DNA of 41,977 nucleotides from an uncultured Cocleimonas sp. (GTDB lineage Bacteria > Pseudomonadota > Gammaproteobacteria > Thiotrichales > Thiotrichaceae). The notes beneath the pieces are model-generated. The model was not told the origin of the DNA. It worked only from the letters and a program-made list of their open reading frames with translations, and did not search any database. The stretch covers positions 1-41,977 of the forward strand of contig NZ_CANLZW010000042.1 of assembly GCF_947495625.1 (NCBI RefSeq). The letters run 5' to 3'. This document shows, in pieces, positions 8,387-30,479 of this stretch; positions within the stretch are counted from its first letter, which is position 1, and each line of letters opens with the position of its first letter. Made by a program: the position numbers and the translations under genes.

Positions 8387-9295
8387 ATGACGTTACCTAA
8401 CTTTCTAATTATCGGAGCTGGCCGTGCAGGTACAACCTCCATGTATAATTATTTGAATCAGCATCCTCAAATATTTATGTCTCCAGTAAAAGAACCTCGA
8501 TTTTTTGCTTACGTCAATAATAAGCCTGAATATAAAGGTCCTCCGCTCGGCATTAATAACCTGGAAAGATATAGTACTGATTTATCATCATATAAAAAAC
8601 TATTTTCCCAAGTATCAAATGAAACAGCTATTGGAGAAGCGTCAGTTGATTATTTATACTTACATTCATCCGCAGAACGGATGAAGGTTTATATTCCTGA
8701 TGTAAAAATAATTATCATTTTAAGACAGCCTGTCGATCGAGCCTATTCACAATTTTGGGCAAGAGTTTCATCAGGCATGGAGCCATTAACTGATTTTTTT
8801 CAAGCTATGGAAGCAGAGGACGAAAGAATGCGGAACAACTGGCCACCACAATTCCATTATAAACAAAAAAGCTTTTATGCTTCTTCTTTAAAGCATTACT
8901 TTCAATTATTTGATAAAAGTCAAATTAAGATAATTTTATATGATGACTATAGTAAAGACCCAAAACAAACACTGAATGAAATAACTAATTTTTTGGGTGT
9001 AAATAATGTTTTCGAATTTGATTTAAATCGTAGATATAATTCTCCTCGAGGCTTAGCAAAATTTCAGTTCATAAACAAAATTCGCAGTTCACGTAGTTGG
9101 GTAAAAACAACACTTAAAGATTTAATCCCTAGTTCCTTTCTTACGTATTTAAGGAATGCCTATAATTCTCTTCAATTTTCTCGTAGACCCTCATTGGATA
9201 AAAAATTAAGAAAGGAACTAACAAGCATATATATAGAGGACATTTTAGAGGTAGAAAAACTTATTAAAAGGGATTTGTCAGAATGGATGAAATAG
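8387..9295 (+). CDS. Sulfotransferase domain protein (third, divergent type)
   Basis: A 302-aa Sulfotransfer_1-type protein. PNFLIIGAGRAGTTSMYNYL at residues 4-23 is the PAPS 5'-phosphosulfate loop, followed by HPQIFMSPVKEPRFF, typical of carbohydrate (heparan-sulfate-like) sulfotransferases. IIIILRQPVDRAYSQFW is the 3'-phosphate-binding segment. It differs from the two minus-strand sulfotransferases (GAGRAGTT against GMHRSGTT) and so is not part of that duplication. It is transcribed divergently from the minus-strand operon. ATG at 8387 begins right after an out-of-frame ATG; the Shine-Dalgarno is weak. A sulfated surface polysaccharide is the likely target by context only. Confidence 0.8.
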   Translation: MTLPNFLIIGAGRAGTTSMYNYLNQHPQIFMSPVKEPRFFAYVNNKPEYKGPPLGINNLERYSTDLSSYKKLFSQVSNETAIGEASVDYLYLHSSAERMKVYIPDVKIIIILRQPVDRAYSQFWARVSSGMEPLTDFFQAMEAEDERMRNNWPPQFHYKQKSFYASSLKHYFQLFDKSQIKIILYDDYSKDPKQTLNEITNFLGVNNVFEFDLNRRYNSPRGLAKFQFINKIRSSRSWVKTTLKDLIPSSFLTYLRNAYNSLQFSRRPSLDKKLRKELTSIYIEDILEVEKLIKRDLSEWMK

Positions 9296-9724
9296 CCAGT
9301 ATTGTTTGATTCTATATTTTCTAAGTATCGCTGAAAAACTGGTATAGCGATTTTACTATGAGCAAAAAGTACTTTTTTTAGTAATGTAGTAGATTAAATC
9401 GAGTTAAATAATATAGGCTGTTTAACCTTTTTTAGAGTAATCTTAATATTCGAAAACTACTCTTTGGAGATTTAAGATTTTTTCCGGAGTATGAAAAGTA
9501 AGAACGGCCTTGATGTTGCAGGTAATTAGAAAGGGTGATCTAGAACATTTAAGTAATTATCTAAGGCAGTATCCTGATATTTTACCGTCATGGAAAAGCT
9601 CATAGCCTCATTTTTTTAAAATGGAAATAAATTTTTTGATCCTAATAATCAGGTAAGTTCAATTTAGAATAAATTAAATTTATCGATATATGTATCATTA
9701 TTAAAGGCATTTGTAGAAGAAGGT
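9296..9724. other. Intergenic stretch without a convincing gene
   Basis: 429 bp of very AT-rich DNA between the divergent sulfotransferase and the flippase. The only open frames are tiny, for example one of 30 codons at 9513-9605 (+) beginning MLQVIRKGDLEHLSNYL, with no clear ribosome binding site. It may be the relic of a lost gene. No transposon end, hairpin or repeat was seen. Confidence 0.4.
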
Positions 9725-11020
9725 ATGGCAAATCTTAAAGAGCGAATAACTCACATACCTACTGAAGTAATAGGTGTTCTAATACATATTACCTATGTGG
9801 TTCTAACTTTCCTTGCTTGGGCTATTCTTGCCCGAACTTTAGATCCTGAAGTATTCGGTAGATACGCTTATCTAATTTCTTGGGTAGCATTAACAGTTAG
9901 TTTTATAACAGCTGGTTTGCCAATATTTCTTGTTCGTGAAATCTCAACGTATAAGCAGAATAATGAGCAACCATTGATAAGGGGTATTATTTATTCCTCT
10001 TTTTTATTTGTAGTTTTCTTTTTTTTACTAGTGGTTATTGGGGTATTTATCATTAATAGTTTCGATGAATTTGATCCTGGGATTATATTTCCATTATTAA
10101 CCGCAGTTTTTTTTCTTCCTTTTATGGCGATCTATCAAGCCGCTACAAAAGGCCTTGGTCATGTAATTTTAGGGCAAATTTCAACTAAATTGATAAGCCC
10201 TGTTCTATGCTTGATATTTATATCCTTGCTGGCTCATTACTCATATTATGAAGCAATTACTGTTAGTAATGTTTTAACTGTTTTTTCATTGGTCGCTTTT
10301 ATTGGGACAATAGTGGCATTTCTTATTTTTCAGCGTAATAATAAAAATTATTACGGCTTAGAAAAAGAATATCAGCTGGCTAAATGGCGCACAAGTTTAT
10401 GGAAAATAAGTTTAATTGGGTGGTTAGTTGCACTTAACATACAGCTCAGTTTTATCCTGCTAGGGTATTTTGCTAATAATGATGAAGTAGCACAATTTAA
10501 AGTTGCAGCGCAAATTACAAGTTTAATACCGTTTGGATTAATCGCTATAAATTCTATCCAGATGCCAGCACTAAACAAAGCATATAATAATAATCAGCAT
10601 GAAGAATTACAGCGTTTAGCCAATCGTAGTTGCATTTTTAGCACTTTTTTTGGCATGCCAATAATACTGATTGTTTTATTCTTTGGGGAAAGCCTTTTAA
10701 CAATATTGTTTGGTTCTGAATATCACAAAGCAAGTAACATATTGTTAATTTTAGCTGTTGGGCAGATTATAAATGTCAGTGCAGGGTCTACAGGGTTACT
10801 CATGCTAGTGTCCAGAAAAGAACATATGATCGTAATAAATCTAGGGTTTACATTACTATTGAATGTTGGTTTTTGTATTATTTTGATACCGAGTCTAGGG
10901 GCTATAGGTGCTGCTATTGCTTCTACTATCTCGCTTGCGCTTAAAAACGTTTTTCTCATATATTATCTTTATCGAAACATTGGTATCGTGTCTCTTCCTA
11001 TAATTTGGCGAAAAAACTAA
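9725..11020 (+). CDS. Wzx-like polysaccharide/oligosaccharide flippase
   Basis: A 431-aa integral membrane protein with about 12 hydrophobic helices and few charges in between, as in the MATE/MVF superfamily polysaccharide-synthesis transporters (Wzx/RfbX type). The N-terminal VVLTFLAWAILARTLDPEVF followed by GRYAYLISW is the usual first-helix pattern (an LGxxxFG-like turn). Such proteins flip undecaprenyl-linked or related sugar repeat units across the inner membrane. No Wzy polymerase or chain-length regulator is present nearby, so export of a short glycan or supply to a system elsewhere is possible. It is the last gene of the AT-rich glycan island; an insertion-sequence remnant follows 118 bp later. 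Confidence 0.8.
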   Translation: MANLKERITHIPTEVIGVLIHITYVVLTFLAWAILARTLDPEVFGRYAYLISWVALTVSFITAGLPIFLVREISTYKQNNEQPLIRGIIYSSFLFVVFFFLLVVIGVFIINSFDEFDPGIIFPLLTAVFFLPFMAIYQAATKGLGHVILGQISTKLISPVLCLIFISLLAHYSYYEAITVSNVLTVFSLVAFIGTIVAFLIFQRNNKNYYGLEKEYQLAKWRTSLWKISLIGWLVALNIQLSFILLGYFANNDEVAQFKVAAQITSLIPFGLIAINSIQMPALNKAYNNNQHEELQRLANRSCIFSTFFGMPIILIVLFFGESLLTILFGSEYHKASNILLILAVGQIINVSAGSTGLLMLVSRKEHMIVINLGFTLLLNVGFCIILIPSLGAIGAAIASTISLALKNVFLIYYLYRNIGIVSLPIIWRKN

Positions 11021-22908: not shown

Positions 22909-23376
22909 ATGAAACGTAGAAGCTTTTTAAAAAGCACATTAGTAGCTAGCGCTGCTGGCGTTGCAGTTACTTCTGGCCTTCTTAGCTCAAGCAACGTATT
23001 CGCTGCTGCGGTTATGGGTGCAGACTTAGCAAAAGCAAAATCAGTTGATGAAATAATGACTATGCTCGGCGCTACCGGTGCAGAAGAGTCGGATAAAATT
23101 AAAATCAAAGCCCCTGAAATTGCAGAAAATGGTGCGGTTGTCCCTGTTGGTATAACTTCTGAAATTGAAGGTACAACAGAAATTATCTCTTTAACTGCTG
23201 CTAACCCAACTCCATTTGCTGCACGATATATGATGGGCGAAGGAGCAGAGGCTGCTGTGAAGTCACGCTTTAAAATGGGCAAGACAACAGACGTTATTGC
23301 AATCGTTAAAGCTGGCGATAAGTTCTATACAGCAAAAACTAACGTTAAAGTAACTAAAGGCGGCTGCGGAGGCTAA
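22909..23376 (+). CDS. soxY: SoxY, sulfur-carrier subunit
   Basis: 155 aa. The N-terminus MKRRSFLKS is a twin-arginine-type signal followed by a hydrophobic stretch, so export folded with SoxZ via Tat is expected. The C-terminus is the canonical swinging arm GGCGG with the carrier Cys153, to which sulfur intermediates are covalently attached. The mature domain (EIAENGAVVPVGI, TPFAARYMMGEGAEAAVKSR) matches SoxY. Immediately upstream of soxZ, whose Shine-Dalgarno lies within the soxY end. Confidence 0.95.
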   Translation: MKRRSFLKSTLVASAAGVAVTSGLLSSSNVFAAAVMGADLAKAKSVDEIMTMLGATGAEESDKIKIKAPEIAENGAVVPVGITSEIEGTTEIISLTAANPTPFAARYMMGEGAEAAVKSRFKMGKTTDVIAIVKAGDKFYTAKTNVKVTKGGCGG

Positions 23377-23380
23377 TATC

Positions 23381-23701
23381 ATGGCAAAATCTACAATAAA
23401 ATTACGTACAAAAGAAAAAGGTGGAATGGTTCAGGTAAAAGCTCTGATCACTCACCCTATGGAAACTGGTCTTCGTAAAGATAAGAAAACTGGCGATGCT
23501 ATACCGGCTCATTACATTACCGAAGTAAAAGTCGAAGCTAACGGTAAAGTTGTAATGACAGCAGATTGGAGTGGTTCGGTATCTAAAAACCCGTTCCTTT
23601 CATTCAATTATGCTGGCTCTAAGTCTGATAAAGTTAAACTTACCTGGACAGACAATATGGGTAAAAGCGACTCTATCGAAAAAGAAGTTGGTAAGAAATA
23701 A
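23381..23701 (+). CDS. soxZ: SoxZ, partner of the SoxY carrier
   Basis: 106 aa, no signal peptide, as usual for SoxZ, which rides through Tat with SoxY. Motifs KGGMVQVKALITHPMETGLR and HYITEVKVEANGK, and an immunoglobulin-like beta sandwich to the end, are typical. Four bases separate it from soxY, and the GGAGG within the soxY C-terminal codons serves as its ribosome binding site, so the two are translated together. Confidence 0.95.
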   Translation: MAKSTIKLRTKEKGGMVQVKALITHPMETGLRKDKKTGDAIPAHYITEVKVEANGKVVMTADWSGSVSKNPFLSFNYAGSKSDKVKLTWTDNMGKSDSIEKEVGKK

Positions 23702-23714
23702 AACTATAAAAATT

Positions 23715-23750
23715 GAATGTCTCGCTTGGCTTTGTCTAAGTGGGACATTC
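23715..23750 (+). promoter_or_regulatory. Intercistronic hairpin between soxZ and soxA
   Basis: A 15-bp stem (GAATGTCTCGCTTGG with CTAAGTGGGACATTC, allowing G-U pairs) and a 6-nt loop fill most of the 73-bp soxZ-soxA gap. No U-run follows, so it is not a classic terminator. It could set mRNA processing or stability, so that soxXYZ and soxAK are produced in different amounts. Confidence 0.6.
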
Positions 23751-23774
23751 TTATATGTAAGCTAGGAGGAAAAA

Positions 23775-24608
23775 ATGAAAAAACTGATCACATCAGTGGC
23801 TTTATTAGTAATAACACTACCTTTTGTTACAGCTCAGGCCTCAACGCCAGCTGAGGATACAGAAGCTTTCAGAAGTTACTTTAAAAAGGCTGTACCTGAC
23901 GTAAAATTTGAAGATTTTCAAAACGGTGTATATGCGCTAGATGCAGATTCACGTAGTCAATGGGAAGAAATTGAAGAGTTTCCACCGTATGAACTTGCAA
24001 TTGATACTGGAACTGAGCTTTGGGAAAAACCATTCAAGAATGGCAAATCTTTTGCCAGTTGTTTTGGAGAAGACCTTAGCGGCACTCGTGCAAAGTACCC
24101 CTACCATGACGAAGAAAAAGATACTATCGTAACTTTAGAAGGCGATATCAATAAATGTCTGACAGATAATGGTGAAAAGCCATTTAAATGGAAGAAAGGC
24201 AATATCGCCGCAGTATCTGCCTACGTTGCTTATCAGGGACGTGGAGAAAAAATTGATGTTCAACCTAAAACTGAAAAAGCAAAAGCCTGGTACGATAAAG
24301 GCAAGAAATTTTTCTATGCTAAACGTGGTCAATTAAACTTGGCTTGTGCTGATTGTCATGTATACAACTTTAATCGTAAGGTTCGTAGTGAATTGTTGAG
24401 CCCTGCGTTAGGTCATCCTACTCACTTCCCAGTATTTAGAACTAAGTGGGGAGAAATGGGTACTTTGCATCGTAGATACGGTGGTTGTAATAAAAACATT
24501 AGAGCTAAGCCTTTTAAAGCACAAAGTGACGAATACAAGGCTTTGGAATACTTCCAGGCAGTAATGTCAAATGGTCTTGAGCTTAACGGCCCAGGTGCTA
24601 GAAAGTAA
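23775..24608 (+). CDS. soxA: SoxA, monohaem c-type cytochrome of SoxXA
   Basis: 277 aa with signal peptide (LLVITLPFVTAQA). The C-terminal haem site is C191-A-D-C194-H195. Active-site Cys238 in RRYGGCNKNIRAKPF is the residue that carries the sulfur modification. The first haem site of dihaem SoxA is absent: SFASCFGED has no CxxCH, and Cys96 and Cys128 remain, which in monohaem SoxA form a disulfide. This, together with a soxK gene downstream, marks a SoxAXK-type complex. It catalyses S-S bond formation between thiosulfate and SoxY in the periplasm. AGGAGG precedes the ATG. Confidence 0.95.
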   Translation: MKKLITSVALLVITLPFVTAQASTPAEDTEAFRSYFKKAVPDVKFEDFQNGVYALDADSRSQWEEIEEFPPYELAIDTGTELWEKPFKNGKSFASCFGEDLSGTRAKYPYHDEEKDTIVTLEGDINKCLTDNGEKPFKWKKGNIAAVSAYVAYQGRGEKIDVQPKTEKAKAWYDKGKKFFYAKRGQLNLACADCHVYNFNRKVRSELLSPALGHPTHFPVFRTKWGEMGTLHRRYGGCNKNIRAKPFKAQSDEYKALEYFQAVMSNGLELNGPGARK

Positions 24609-28256: not shown

Positions 28257-28292
28257 AAGCCTCTAGGGACATTGTCGCTAGGGGCTTTTTTA
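28257..28292 (+). terminator. Intrinsic terminator of rho
   Basis: AAGCCTCTAG pairs with CTAGGGGCTT (one G-U) across an 11-nt loop and is followed by a T-run. It lies 21 bp past the rho stop codon. Confidence 0.92.
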
Positions 28293-28390
28293 TTGCCGTT
28301 TGTATTTTGATTTATTTTCACTACAATGGCTGTAACTTGTCCTTTTTGATGTGGGCATTATTCTGATGAATTAGTGATTGGAGAAATTAC

Positions 28391-28597
28391 ATGGCAGCTG
28401 AATTAGAGCTTCGTTGGTTGAAGACAGATAAAGTTAGAGGGGCCGCAAAACGCTTCGCTAAATTCTGTAAAGAAGATGTAAAAGAGCAGTCAGAAAAAGA
28501 AGATTTCGATATCGATAAGTATGAAGATGCCGTTAAGCTTGTACTTCAAAAACTAGATGACTCTATTTCTGTAGAGGAGCTGTTCCATGCTGATTAA
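28391..28597 (+). CDS. 68-aa acidic protein paired with a Rad50-like ATPase
   Basis: 68 aa, family not recognised. Highly charged (KEDVKEQSEKEDFDIDKYED) and predicted helical, with no signal peptide or cysteine pair; one Cys near the centre. GGAG precedes the ATG. Its last codons overlap the start of the ATPase gene by 11 bp, so the two are translationally coupled and probably produced in fixed ratio. It sits where Rad50/SbcC/YhaN-type ATPases usually have a nuclease partner (an SbcD-like phosphoesterase), yet is far too small to be one. A regulatory or adaptor subunit is the most reasonable guess. Confidence 0.75.
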   Translation: MAAELELRWLKTDKVRGAAKRFAKFCKEDVKEQSEKEDFDIDKYEDAVKLVLQKLDDSISVEELFHAD

Positions 28598-30479
28598 ATC
28601 TCTAGTTGCCACCAACTTTCGCAAATACCATAAGCTTGAAGTCACCGATATTCCTGAATCAGGGGTTATTACTGTAGCTGGCTCAAATGAATCAGGAAAA
28701 ACCAGTATAGGTGAATCCATCTGTTTTGCGCTTTTCGGCAGAACATTTTTCCTCGATGAAAAAAATCTCGGTAAACTCGTTTCCTGGGGATCAGATGTTT
28801 CTGATGTCACCATAAATTTTATTTCGGGTGATGATGATATTTACGAGCTGACTCGAAGTGTCGATCGCAAAGGGGTATCAAAAGCAACACTGCAAAAAAT
28901 TACCGGTGATGATGAGGGAAATAACAAAATCGATGGTGTGGATGAAGTCGCTAAAGCGTTACCTAAAATTCTAGGTTTTGATTACGATGCCTTTGCTAAT
29001 TCGTTTTACCTCGCTCAAAGAGAGTTAACATCTCCAGATCCACAAAGTAGCACCATAAAACAAATGGCGGGTATTGGCGCTTACGCTCAAATTACCGACG
29101 ATTTCGAAAAATCTAATATTCAGAATGAAGAAGCAATCAAAGAGTTAATGCCACAGGTAGAATCGACTCAAGCCGATCTGGATGAAATTCAACTGGATGA
29201 AACCTGGCTCCCAGAATTAATTGATGCCGAAGAAACTTTGGGCACAGAGCAAAGGGACAGAGAGCGATTAGTCGGCCATTTGAATGATAATGGTGAACTG
29301 TACTCAAATAATTATGATGCTTTTCACAGTGCCAGAAAAGCTTTTGGCACTTTCTCTTTTTTGGGTAAGTTATTATTTCCAATAACTGTAATTTTATGGA
29401 TATTGTGGGTTTTAAATACTTATTTTAAAGACTCATCAATGGAATCTTTATCGACTTTATCGACTTCAATGAGTGAAGAAAAAATTTCGACTTATGCCAG
29501 CATGGCAGATAATTGGCTATTACCAGCCGCGATAATTACATTGATTGGTTACCTGATCACACTGGTTGTGCGTAAGAACTCTCAGGCAACTATGGTTAGG
29601 TTAGATGAAGAGGCGGAAGGCTTCTCTGGTTCCTTGCAGCATGGTCATCGATACGTAACAACATTGGTGGAAACCTTATTGCCAGAACGTGTTGTGCAAA
29701 TGCTTCATGAAAGAAAAGAAGCGCCTTCCACACTTCAAATTCTTCCTCCAAGAGAGCAATTCAATAATCTGTCGCAATTAGCTGAAGGTACTACTGGCTA
29801 TAAGGCTGATACCGAGGAAATTACGGCTGCAGTAACAAGGTTAACCGATTCACTAAAAAAACAAGATGGTGAAATAGAAGATTTGGGTAGAGAGTTACTT
29901 GGCGACATCAGTAAAGAGAAAGAGCGTTCTGACAAGGCTGGGAATTTACGATCTACCTTGCAAAGCCTCAATAAGGTTGTAGATAAATGTAAATACAGTA
30001 TCGAAACACAAAATATTTCAATTGGGTTAATGCAACGTGCGGCGAAAGATTCAGTCGAACTTTTCAATCAAAATATTTCCGATATATCAGCGAATACGTT
30101 GCCTAAGTTTACTGAAGGCCGTTACAGTGAAGTAAGAATCGCAGAGGATTTTAGCGTACAAATTTACTCTGGCGAAAAGACCGATTATATGGATTTCGAT
30201 GAGATATCCTCGGGAACTCAGCGTCAGGTTATGCTGGCATTGAGAATGGCGATGTCCGAAGAGTTAGCGAAGAATTCTGGCAATGAAAAGCAATTTATCT
30301 TCCTTGATGAGCCATTTGCTTTCTTTGATCAGTTAAGAACAAATGCAACAATGCGTGCACTACCAGATGTCAGTAATGTGATTAATCAGGTCTGGATTTC
30401 TGCACAGGAATTCCCGGCAGATGTACAAGTGGCTAAGGCGATTATATGTCCGCTGGATGGCACGGAGCTTATCGTTTAG
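28587..30479 (+). CDS. Rad50/SbcC-like ATPase with a central transmembrane hairpin
   Basis: 630 aa. The two halves of an SMC/Rad50-type ABC head are complete: Walker A GSNESGKTS (32-40), Q-loop YLAQRELT, signature ISSGTQRQ (540-547) and Walker B FIFLDEP (570-576). Between them are shorter helical arms, and at the apex, where Rad50 has a CxxC zinc hook, two transmembrane helices instead (about 259-280, FLGKLLFPITVILWILWVLN; and 311-328, LLPAAIITLIGYLITLVV) around a loop of about 30 residues. That topology puts the ATP head in the cytoplasm and the loop outside. Relatives act on DNA ends; a membrane-anchored function here is inference. No nuclease gene is adjacent. Confidence 0.8.
   Translation: MLIKSLVATNFRKYHKLEVTDIPESGVITVAGSNESGKTSIGESICFALFGRTFFLDEKNLGKLVSWGSDVSDVTINFISGDDDIYELTRSVDRKGVSKATLQKITGDDEGNNKIDGVDEVAKALPKILGFDYDAFANSFYLAQRELTSPDPQSSTIKQMAGIGAYAQITDDFEKSNIQNEEAIKELMPQVESTQADLDEIQLDETWLPELIDAEETLGTEQRDRERLVGHLNDNGELYSNNYDAFHSARKAFGTFSFLGKLLFPITVILWILWVLNTYFKDSSMESLSTLSTSMSEEKISTYASMADNWLLPAAIITLIGYLITLVVRKNSQATMVRLDEEAEGFSGSLQHGHRYVTTLVETLLPERVVQMLHERKEAPSTLQILPPREQFNNLSQLAEGTTGYKADTEEITAAVTRLTDSLKKQDGEIEDLGRELLGDISKEKERSDKAGNLRSTLQSLNKVVDKCKYSIETQNISIGLMQRAAKDSVELFNQNISDISANTLPKFTEGRYSEVRIAEDFSVQIYSGEKTDYMDFDEISSGTQRQVMLALRMAMSEELAKNSGNEKQFIFLDEPFAFFDQLRTNATMRALPDVSNVINQVWISAQEFPADVQVAKAIICPLDGTELIV

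Follow-up and report, generated by a model that had tools for sequence, protein, structure and literature searches.

A Rad50-type ATPase with a predicted transmembrane hairpin in place of the zinc hook, and its proposed small partner, in Cocleimonas

ATPases of the SMC/Rad50 kind are usually viewed as soluble DNA machines in which the tip of the coiled coil is closed by a hinge or a hook. SbcE/YhaN of Bacillus, a coiled-coil ABC (ATP-binding cassette) ATPase with a head of this type, is annotated with two central membrane segments. It has been linked to break repair and competence, in work cited in PMC3896406 and PMC4205851. In what PMC10586767 says of the Lamassu system, LmuB is a Rad50 relative of ~650 amino acids that is often found with a small partner, LmuC, and many LmuB proteins carry a zinc hook; PMC9389158, in its passages on the archaeal SMC/Rad50-like ATPases ASRP, Sph, ClsN and arcadin-4, gives a zinc hook to the vast majority of them, and the words 'transmembrane' and 'membrane' are absent from its main text. 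Here, we describe a two-gene unit from an uncultured member of the genus Cocleimonas (Thiotrichaceae, Gammaproteobacteria), found in a stretch of 41,977 nucleotides (contig NZ_CANLZW010000042.1, positions 1 to 41,977; hereafter the window), which encodes a Rad50-type coiled-coil ATPase and, overlapping its start, a small acidic protein. SbcE/YhaN is the nearest described protein to this ATPase, and in the open-access papers searched we came across no account of a Rad50-like ATPase that has a membrane tip and a small partner. The original prediction, made from the letters of the window alone, was that no described system is known with exactly this make-up; it holds for those papers, with the qualifier that SbcE/YhaN, with its two membrane segments, is a precedent.

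Judged by its sequence, the head of the window ATPase is of the Rad50 type. It matches Pfam AAA_23 (E=1.7e-12) and SMC_N (E=4.1e-11), and a 38-row profile of the family finds Rad50 of M. jannaschii (5f3w, E=4.5e-46) as its best match in the PDB. Counted over the same 38-row alignment, the Walker A residues G32, G37 and K38 and the Walker B residues D574 and E575 are invariant, the Q-loop Gln144 is kept in 36 rows, and the signature Ser541 and the D-loop Asp581 are each kept in 37. The usual H-loop histidine position is occupied by Gln607 in 37 of the 38 rows, so that the 'complete SMC/Rad50 head' first claimed for this protein is complete in its ATP-binding and catalytic motifs but not at the H-loop. 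A family signature, FGRT...K.I.WG, follows Walker A, and Trp67 is invariant. The curated cut-offs are missed by some distance (81 bits against 847 for the best Rad50 model, and 51 against 478.5 for sbcc), and profile matches to ASRP and arcadin-4 are weak. What the ATPase has in common with Rad50/SbcC of the Mre11-Rad50 and SbcCD systems is the head fold and its motifs, whereas it differs from them in its short arms, in the glutamine at the H-loop position, and in having neither a CxxC zinc hook nor an SbcD/Mre11 gene nearby. The archaeal SMC-related proteins are likewise similar in being SMC/Rad50-like ATPases and different in the zinc hook, insofar as the passages mentioned above describe them.

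The place of the hook is instead taken by two hydrophobic segments (Table 1), which lie at the apex of the coiled coil of a protein that contains no CxxC motif. We compared 66 loci, the window counted, from Gammaproteobacteria and from genomes outside that class: the window genome, the 35 other ATPase-positive genomes of a class-wide sample, 5 more from the host family, 5 Cocleimonas or Thiotrichaceae loci, and 20 genomes chosen from the 33 that are positive outside the class, probably Magnetococcia. Under a strict test (two segments with a mean hydropathy of at least 1.6) the pair is present in 54 of the 66 loci and in none of 12 YhaN-type ATPases, and the host's own SbcC fails. A lenient test (a pair at 1.2 or above) is passed by all 66 loci, but 2 of the 12 YhaN-type proteins and the host's own SbcC pass it too, which makes it non-specific; we relied on the strict threshold and set the lenient one aside. 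Lysine and arginine are more frequent in the flanks than in the inter-helix loop in 65 of the 66 loci, and in 62 of them the two apical segments are separated by a loop of 20-38 residues. From hydropathy and charge, two membrane-spanning helices at the apex are probable, and by the positive-inside rule the loop of the window protein, at 33 residues, is predicted to be periplasmic. The proposal of two transmembrane helices at the zinc-hook position agrees with these predictions in the window and, at the strict threshold, in 54 of the 66 loci.

The second gene of the unit is a near-constant companion of the ATPase. In a search with a profile built from Thiotrichaceae members alone, a few of them taken from the counted loci, a small open reading frame (ORF) directly upstream is the best match of its locus in 57/66 cases; iterating the search, whereby these ORFs enter the profile, raises this to 62/66, with a 4-bp overlap in 45 of the 62. 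The four misses comprise a locus with an upstream match whose gene start is mis-set (L136), two diverged members with no match (L149 and L139) and a contig fragment (L157). Across the class-wide sample the small protein occurs in 23 of 369 genomes, and all 23 lie within the 36 that have the ATPase (hypergeometric P about 1e-27, ancestry ignored); within the host family it occurs in 52 of 63 genomes, and there is no match to it among the viral contigs searched. Its family motif reads F..FC..E/D..R......FD...Y..A..LVL.+L, and members tend to be acidic, with an isoelectric point below 6 in 47 of 62. That the window member is acidic (4.86) and overlaps the start of the ATPase by 11 bp had both been stated from the outset and agree with the calculated value and the ORF coordinates. 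It had also been called unrecognised, and no known helper family emerged from any of the searches made: neither Pfam nor PADLOC gave a match for the window protein, and NCBIfam and PHROGs gave only weak ones (E 0.016 or worse); the commonest Pfam match among 59 members is common to just 2 of them (best E=0.0008), while in the PDB the family profile finds nothing better than E=0.034. The protein is predicted to be mainly helical by an AlphaFold model from seven sequences (predicted local distance difference test score, pLDDT, of 62), which is too weak to name a fold, and Foldseek with this low-confidence model returned nothing below E=8.

We used the host genome's own SbcD as the query for a nuclease partner in all 66 loci, with flanks of up to 10 kb (at least 5 kb on both sides in 37 of the 65 other loci, and less than 1 kb on one side in 11 of the 65). 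Within the flanks covered, no SbcD-like ORF lies near the ATPase in any of the 66. The method works, because the same query detects an SbcD-like ORF near 11 of the 12 YhaN-type ATPases. A single weak match (E=0.0017) was obtained over all 66 loci: it lies in the window, some 26 kb from the ATPase, and the ORF resembles cyclic-nucleotide phosphodiesterases and other phosphoesterases but stays below every cut-off. At 2037-2831 on the minus strand, the window encodes a 264-residue metallophosphoesterase with weak matches to LpxG, CpdA and an anti-phage phosphoesterase, none of them over its cut-off. Canonical SbcC (1018 residues) and SbcD (396 residues) are encoded together on another contig of the host genome, and so we rejected the idea that the ATPase is an orphan SbcC. 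Since it lacks the hook, has no nuclease nearby and scores under the cut-offs, the family is not SbcCD. Nor did a conserved third gene emerge across 46 clustered loci, counting clusters that occur in at least 4 loci and with no defence library searched for the neighbours: rho (8/46) and thioredoxin (7/46) recur in the host's own family alone, and the other gene families found in at least 4 loci sit at scattered positions or in few loci, so that a conserved third gene in Gammaproteobacteria was rejected beyond this pair. The suspected absence of an SbcD/Mre11-like nuclease thus holds across the neighbourhood survey, and the combination for which the window was singled out, apical helices with a coupled small partner and no adjoining nuclease, is a trait of the family.

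The ATPase has the distribution of a core gene in certain lineages. It is present in 59 of 63 host-family genomes, including 44 of the 46 of good quality, although one positive is a fragment of just 35 residues where a contig stops and two of the 4 negative genomes are 99-100% complete; in a second gammaproteobacterial family it is present in 22 of 24. Broader samples gave 36 positive genomes out of 369 across the class and 34 out of 398 across the phylum, 33 of the latter outside the host's class. Searches beyond the phylum covered viral contigs, phage and plasmid collections and a close-relative scan of 84,980 species genomes, and there were zero matches in 72,556 plasmid records and 50,697 phage records. 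Among viral contigs there are 48 relatives with 24-44% identity in their best segments, of which 45 are partial and nearly always cover the N-terminal head; L170, L174 and L177, which match residues 1-604, are ordinary zinc-hook Rad50 relatives, because they carry a CPTC hook and lack the segment pair. That the ATPase is a mobile or viral gene was rejected on these grounds. In a head tree of 51 proteins (38 family members, 12 YhaN-type proteins and the host's own SbcC) single branches set apart the family (99/96), the YhaN-type proteins (100/100) and the gammaproteobacterial members (96/99); members outside the class form no single group, and the host's SbcC and the family member L129 are long branches.

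Some variation within the family deserves mention. Most members are 600-800 residues long, and a long form, mostly of 720-800 residues (L147 and L144 are examples, as are the members from outside the class), has an insertion in the first arm, ahead of the helices and ~110 residues long, which is missing from the Thiotrichaceae members and from several other gammaproteobacterial ones. The L129 member (8998-10848, in the Thiotrichaceae genome G037) is degenerate: serine is replaced by lysine and glycine by glutamate in the signature, and the D-loop aspartate and the glutamine at the H-loop position are lost, whilst Walker A, the Walker B DE pair, the apical segments and the small partner are retained. 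In the class sample, the sulfur oxidation gene dsrA is enriched in genomes with the ATPase (27/36 versus 91/333, or 19/25 versus 69/247 at genus level), an enrichment that may be explained by shared ancestry.

The reading that we consider most likely, at a probability of roughly 0.4, is a Rad50-like clamp that is gated by ATP and tethered to the membrane, works with no dedicated nuclease and is regulated by the small helical protein; its likeliest ligand would be DNA, ahead of an envelope component. What the sequences show in its favour is the gene pair and its co-occurrence, the head motifs, the paired apical segments, the lack of a nuclease in the flanks covered, the core-like conservation, the separation from SbcC and the YhaN-type proteins on the tree and the presence of a canonical SbcCD elsewhere in the genome, whereas membrane insertion, the dimer, binding by the small protein and DNA as ligand are inferred. 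A homodimeric Rad50-type ATPase would be anchored in the inner membrane, with cytoplasmic heads that bind ATP and engage, and its two coiled-coil arms would reach the membrane, where the transmembrane hairpin would stand in place of the zinc hook. The coupled helical protein of 60-80 residues may bind the head or neck and regulate the ATPase, in the position that is held in relatives by the Rad50-binding helices of Mre11 or by a kleisin. Because the unit has no nuclease of its own, it would act as a tether or clamp rather than as a processing enzyme, most likely on DNA held at the membrane. Several points weigh against this reading and need to be set beside it. DNA binding, ATPase activity, membrane localisation and the interaction with the partner are each predicted from sequence, and no conserved DNA-binding patch was identified among the 38 rows, where just eight positions have a basic residue in 34 or more rows (K13, K38, R52, K63, R90, K531, R553 and R584). 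At the strict threshold of 1.6, 12 of the 66 loci are without the second hydrophobic segment. The AlphaFold model of the ATPase, built from seven sequences, is weak (mean pLDDT 64.6, with parts of the head below 50), and Foldseek with this model found mainly Rad50/SMC chains at TM-scores near 0.2, to which we gave weight only for the family of the head. Flanks that are short in part of the loci limit the negative result for the nuclease, and one could be encoded elsewhere. Finally, the PstS-like gene that follows the ATPase outside Gammaproteobacteria is easier to reconcile with a role at the envelope than with one on DNA.

FtsEX and MacB are mechanotransmitting ABC systems, and an envelope machine modelled on them is the alternative that we rank second, although we think it unlikely. 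Here, ATP would drive engagement of the heads, and the arms and the hairpin in the membrane would relay this motion to the periplasm, with the small protein gating the heads, DNA uninvolved and, outside Gammaproteobacteria, a PstS-like binding protein acting as periplasmic partner or sensor. A gene for a PstS-like exported protein follows the ATPase in 19 of the 20 loci from outside the class, the remaining one (L259) ending at a contig edge, and the two such proteins that were scanned against Pfam both match PBP_like_2. The apical pair with its inter-helix loop, the absence of an SbcD-like gene nearby and the lack of a recurrent third gene in the other 46 loci beyond rho and thioredoxin are also in keeping with a machine of this kind. 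Against it, the inter-helix loop is short, the heads resemble those of DNA-binding Rad50, and the other 46 loci hold no PstS-like ORF. Among gammaproteobacterial genomes, the PstS profile has a match in 15 of the 36 with the ATPase and in 8 of 20 without it, and it matches 7 of 7 genomes from other classes. A close PstS-like member (E 4e-99 or better) is present in just three of the 36 (G279, G410 and G351), at other sites in the genome, and the Cocleimonas genome has no match to the profile at E<=1e-10. Given the similar rates with and without the ATPase in Gammaproteobacteria, the PstS-like gene is unsupported as a general partner, and we take it as a hint towards the periplasmic side. A further idea, which we regard as somewhat more doubtful still, is that a DNA-clamp ATPase has been turned into a transenvelope transducer, with a transmembrane hairpin exchanged for the hook, a tiny helical regulator exchanged for the nuclease and, beyond Gammaproteobacteria, a PstS-like partner on the outside. 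In the loci outside the class (L243-L262), an MFS_1_like transporter gene (L243) or weakly ATP-grasp-like genes of ~380 residues (L244 and L247) were seen upstream of the small protein in the three loci scanned, and co-directed genes of similar size recur in others, which suggests a longer operon that ends in the PstS-like gene.

Less probable again is a role like that of SbcE/YhaN, in which the ATPase would serve membrane-linked double-strand-break repair or DNA uptake with a nuclease encoded elsewhere, such as the host's own SbcD. The YhaN-type family PF13514 (AAA_27) is matched by 12 of the 38 rows at E<=0.001, one of the loci outside the class (L243) being just at the 22-bit cut-off, and the window ATPase has no match to it at E<=1. 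The 12 YhaN-type proteins from the same phylum are, like the present ATPase and the SbcE/YhaN-YhaO system, coiled-coil ABC ATPases with an SMC/Rad50-type head, but they have 1095-1179 residues, no segment that passes the strict threshold and, in 11 of 12 cases, an SbcD-like gene next door. The present family is shorter and has the apical pair and the small partner, and the head tree separates it from these proteobacterial YhaN-type proteins, Bacillus YhaN itself being outside the tree. Moreover, 14 genomes hold both kinds of ATPase at different sites. No LexA-like box stands out, and the window contains 143 matches to a LexA-like pattern where 153 would be expected by chance, so SOS control was rejected. 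Because it is separate on the tree, has no nuclease nearby and carries the apical pair, the family is not of the proteobacterial YhaN type.

A defence system against phages or plasmids akin to Lamassu or Wadjet, in which the small protein would be a middle component, is very improbable, and the suggestion of phage defence in the original prediction is not supported, since the resemblance of the ATPase to the mad3, LmuB and PbeC profiles (best E=1.3e-15) and to LmuB and LmuC in size and small partner, so far as the source cited above describes them, is set against near-universal presence in two families and no plasmid or phage record, and against a unit that has no third gene in the window and, among clusters in at least 4 loci, none beyond rho and thioredoxin that recurs across the 46 loci. 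The core-like distribution and the predicted apical pair also separate the unit from Lamassu, and the family is not Lamassu because it has no effector gene of the LmuA type.

In the window itself, the gene pair lies downstream of thioredoxin and rho, and the next gene is on the opposite strand. Given this, and a terminator-like stem after rho, the pair probably forms a transcription unit of its own. The thiosulfate oxidation genes soxY, soxZ and soxA are encoded at 22909-24605 on the plus strand. The closest named relative is Cocleimonas flava DSM 24830, at 90% identity. The coordinates of the pair and its features are collected in Table 1.

Table 1. Features of the gene pair and its upstream flank (window positions)
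Feature	Position	Strand	Basis or remark
Acidic 68-residue small protein, proposed partner of the ATPase	28391..28597	+	ORF call, sequence
Rad50-type coiled-coil ABC ATPase, 630 residues, predicted apical transmembrane hairpin	28587..30479	+	
Overlap of the two genes, 11 bp	28587..28597	+	translational coupling inferred
Walker A (G32-S-N-E-S-G-K38-T39)	28680..28703	+	
Transmembrane helix 1, predicted, residues 258-276	29358..29414	+	hydropathy
Transmembrane helix 2, predicted, residues 310-328	29514..29570	+	hydropathy
ABC signature SSGTQRQ, residues 541-547	30207..30227	+	
Walker B FIFLDEP, residues 570-576, including the expected catalytic Glu575	30294..30314	+	
Terminator-like stem and T-run 3' of rho	28259..28297	+	by eye; absent from the terminator scan list

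If the reading of a membrane-tethered clamp, or that of an envelope machine, is true, then this nuclease-free, membrane-tipped core family would represent a second use of the SMC/Rad50 fold, in which it either keeps DNA at the membrane or drives motion across it with ATP. Both ideas are directly testable, because the unit is small and conserved and occurs in a cultured strain, Cocleimonas flava DSM 24830.
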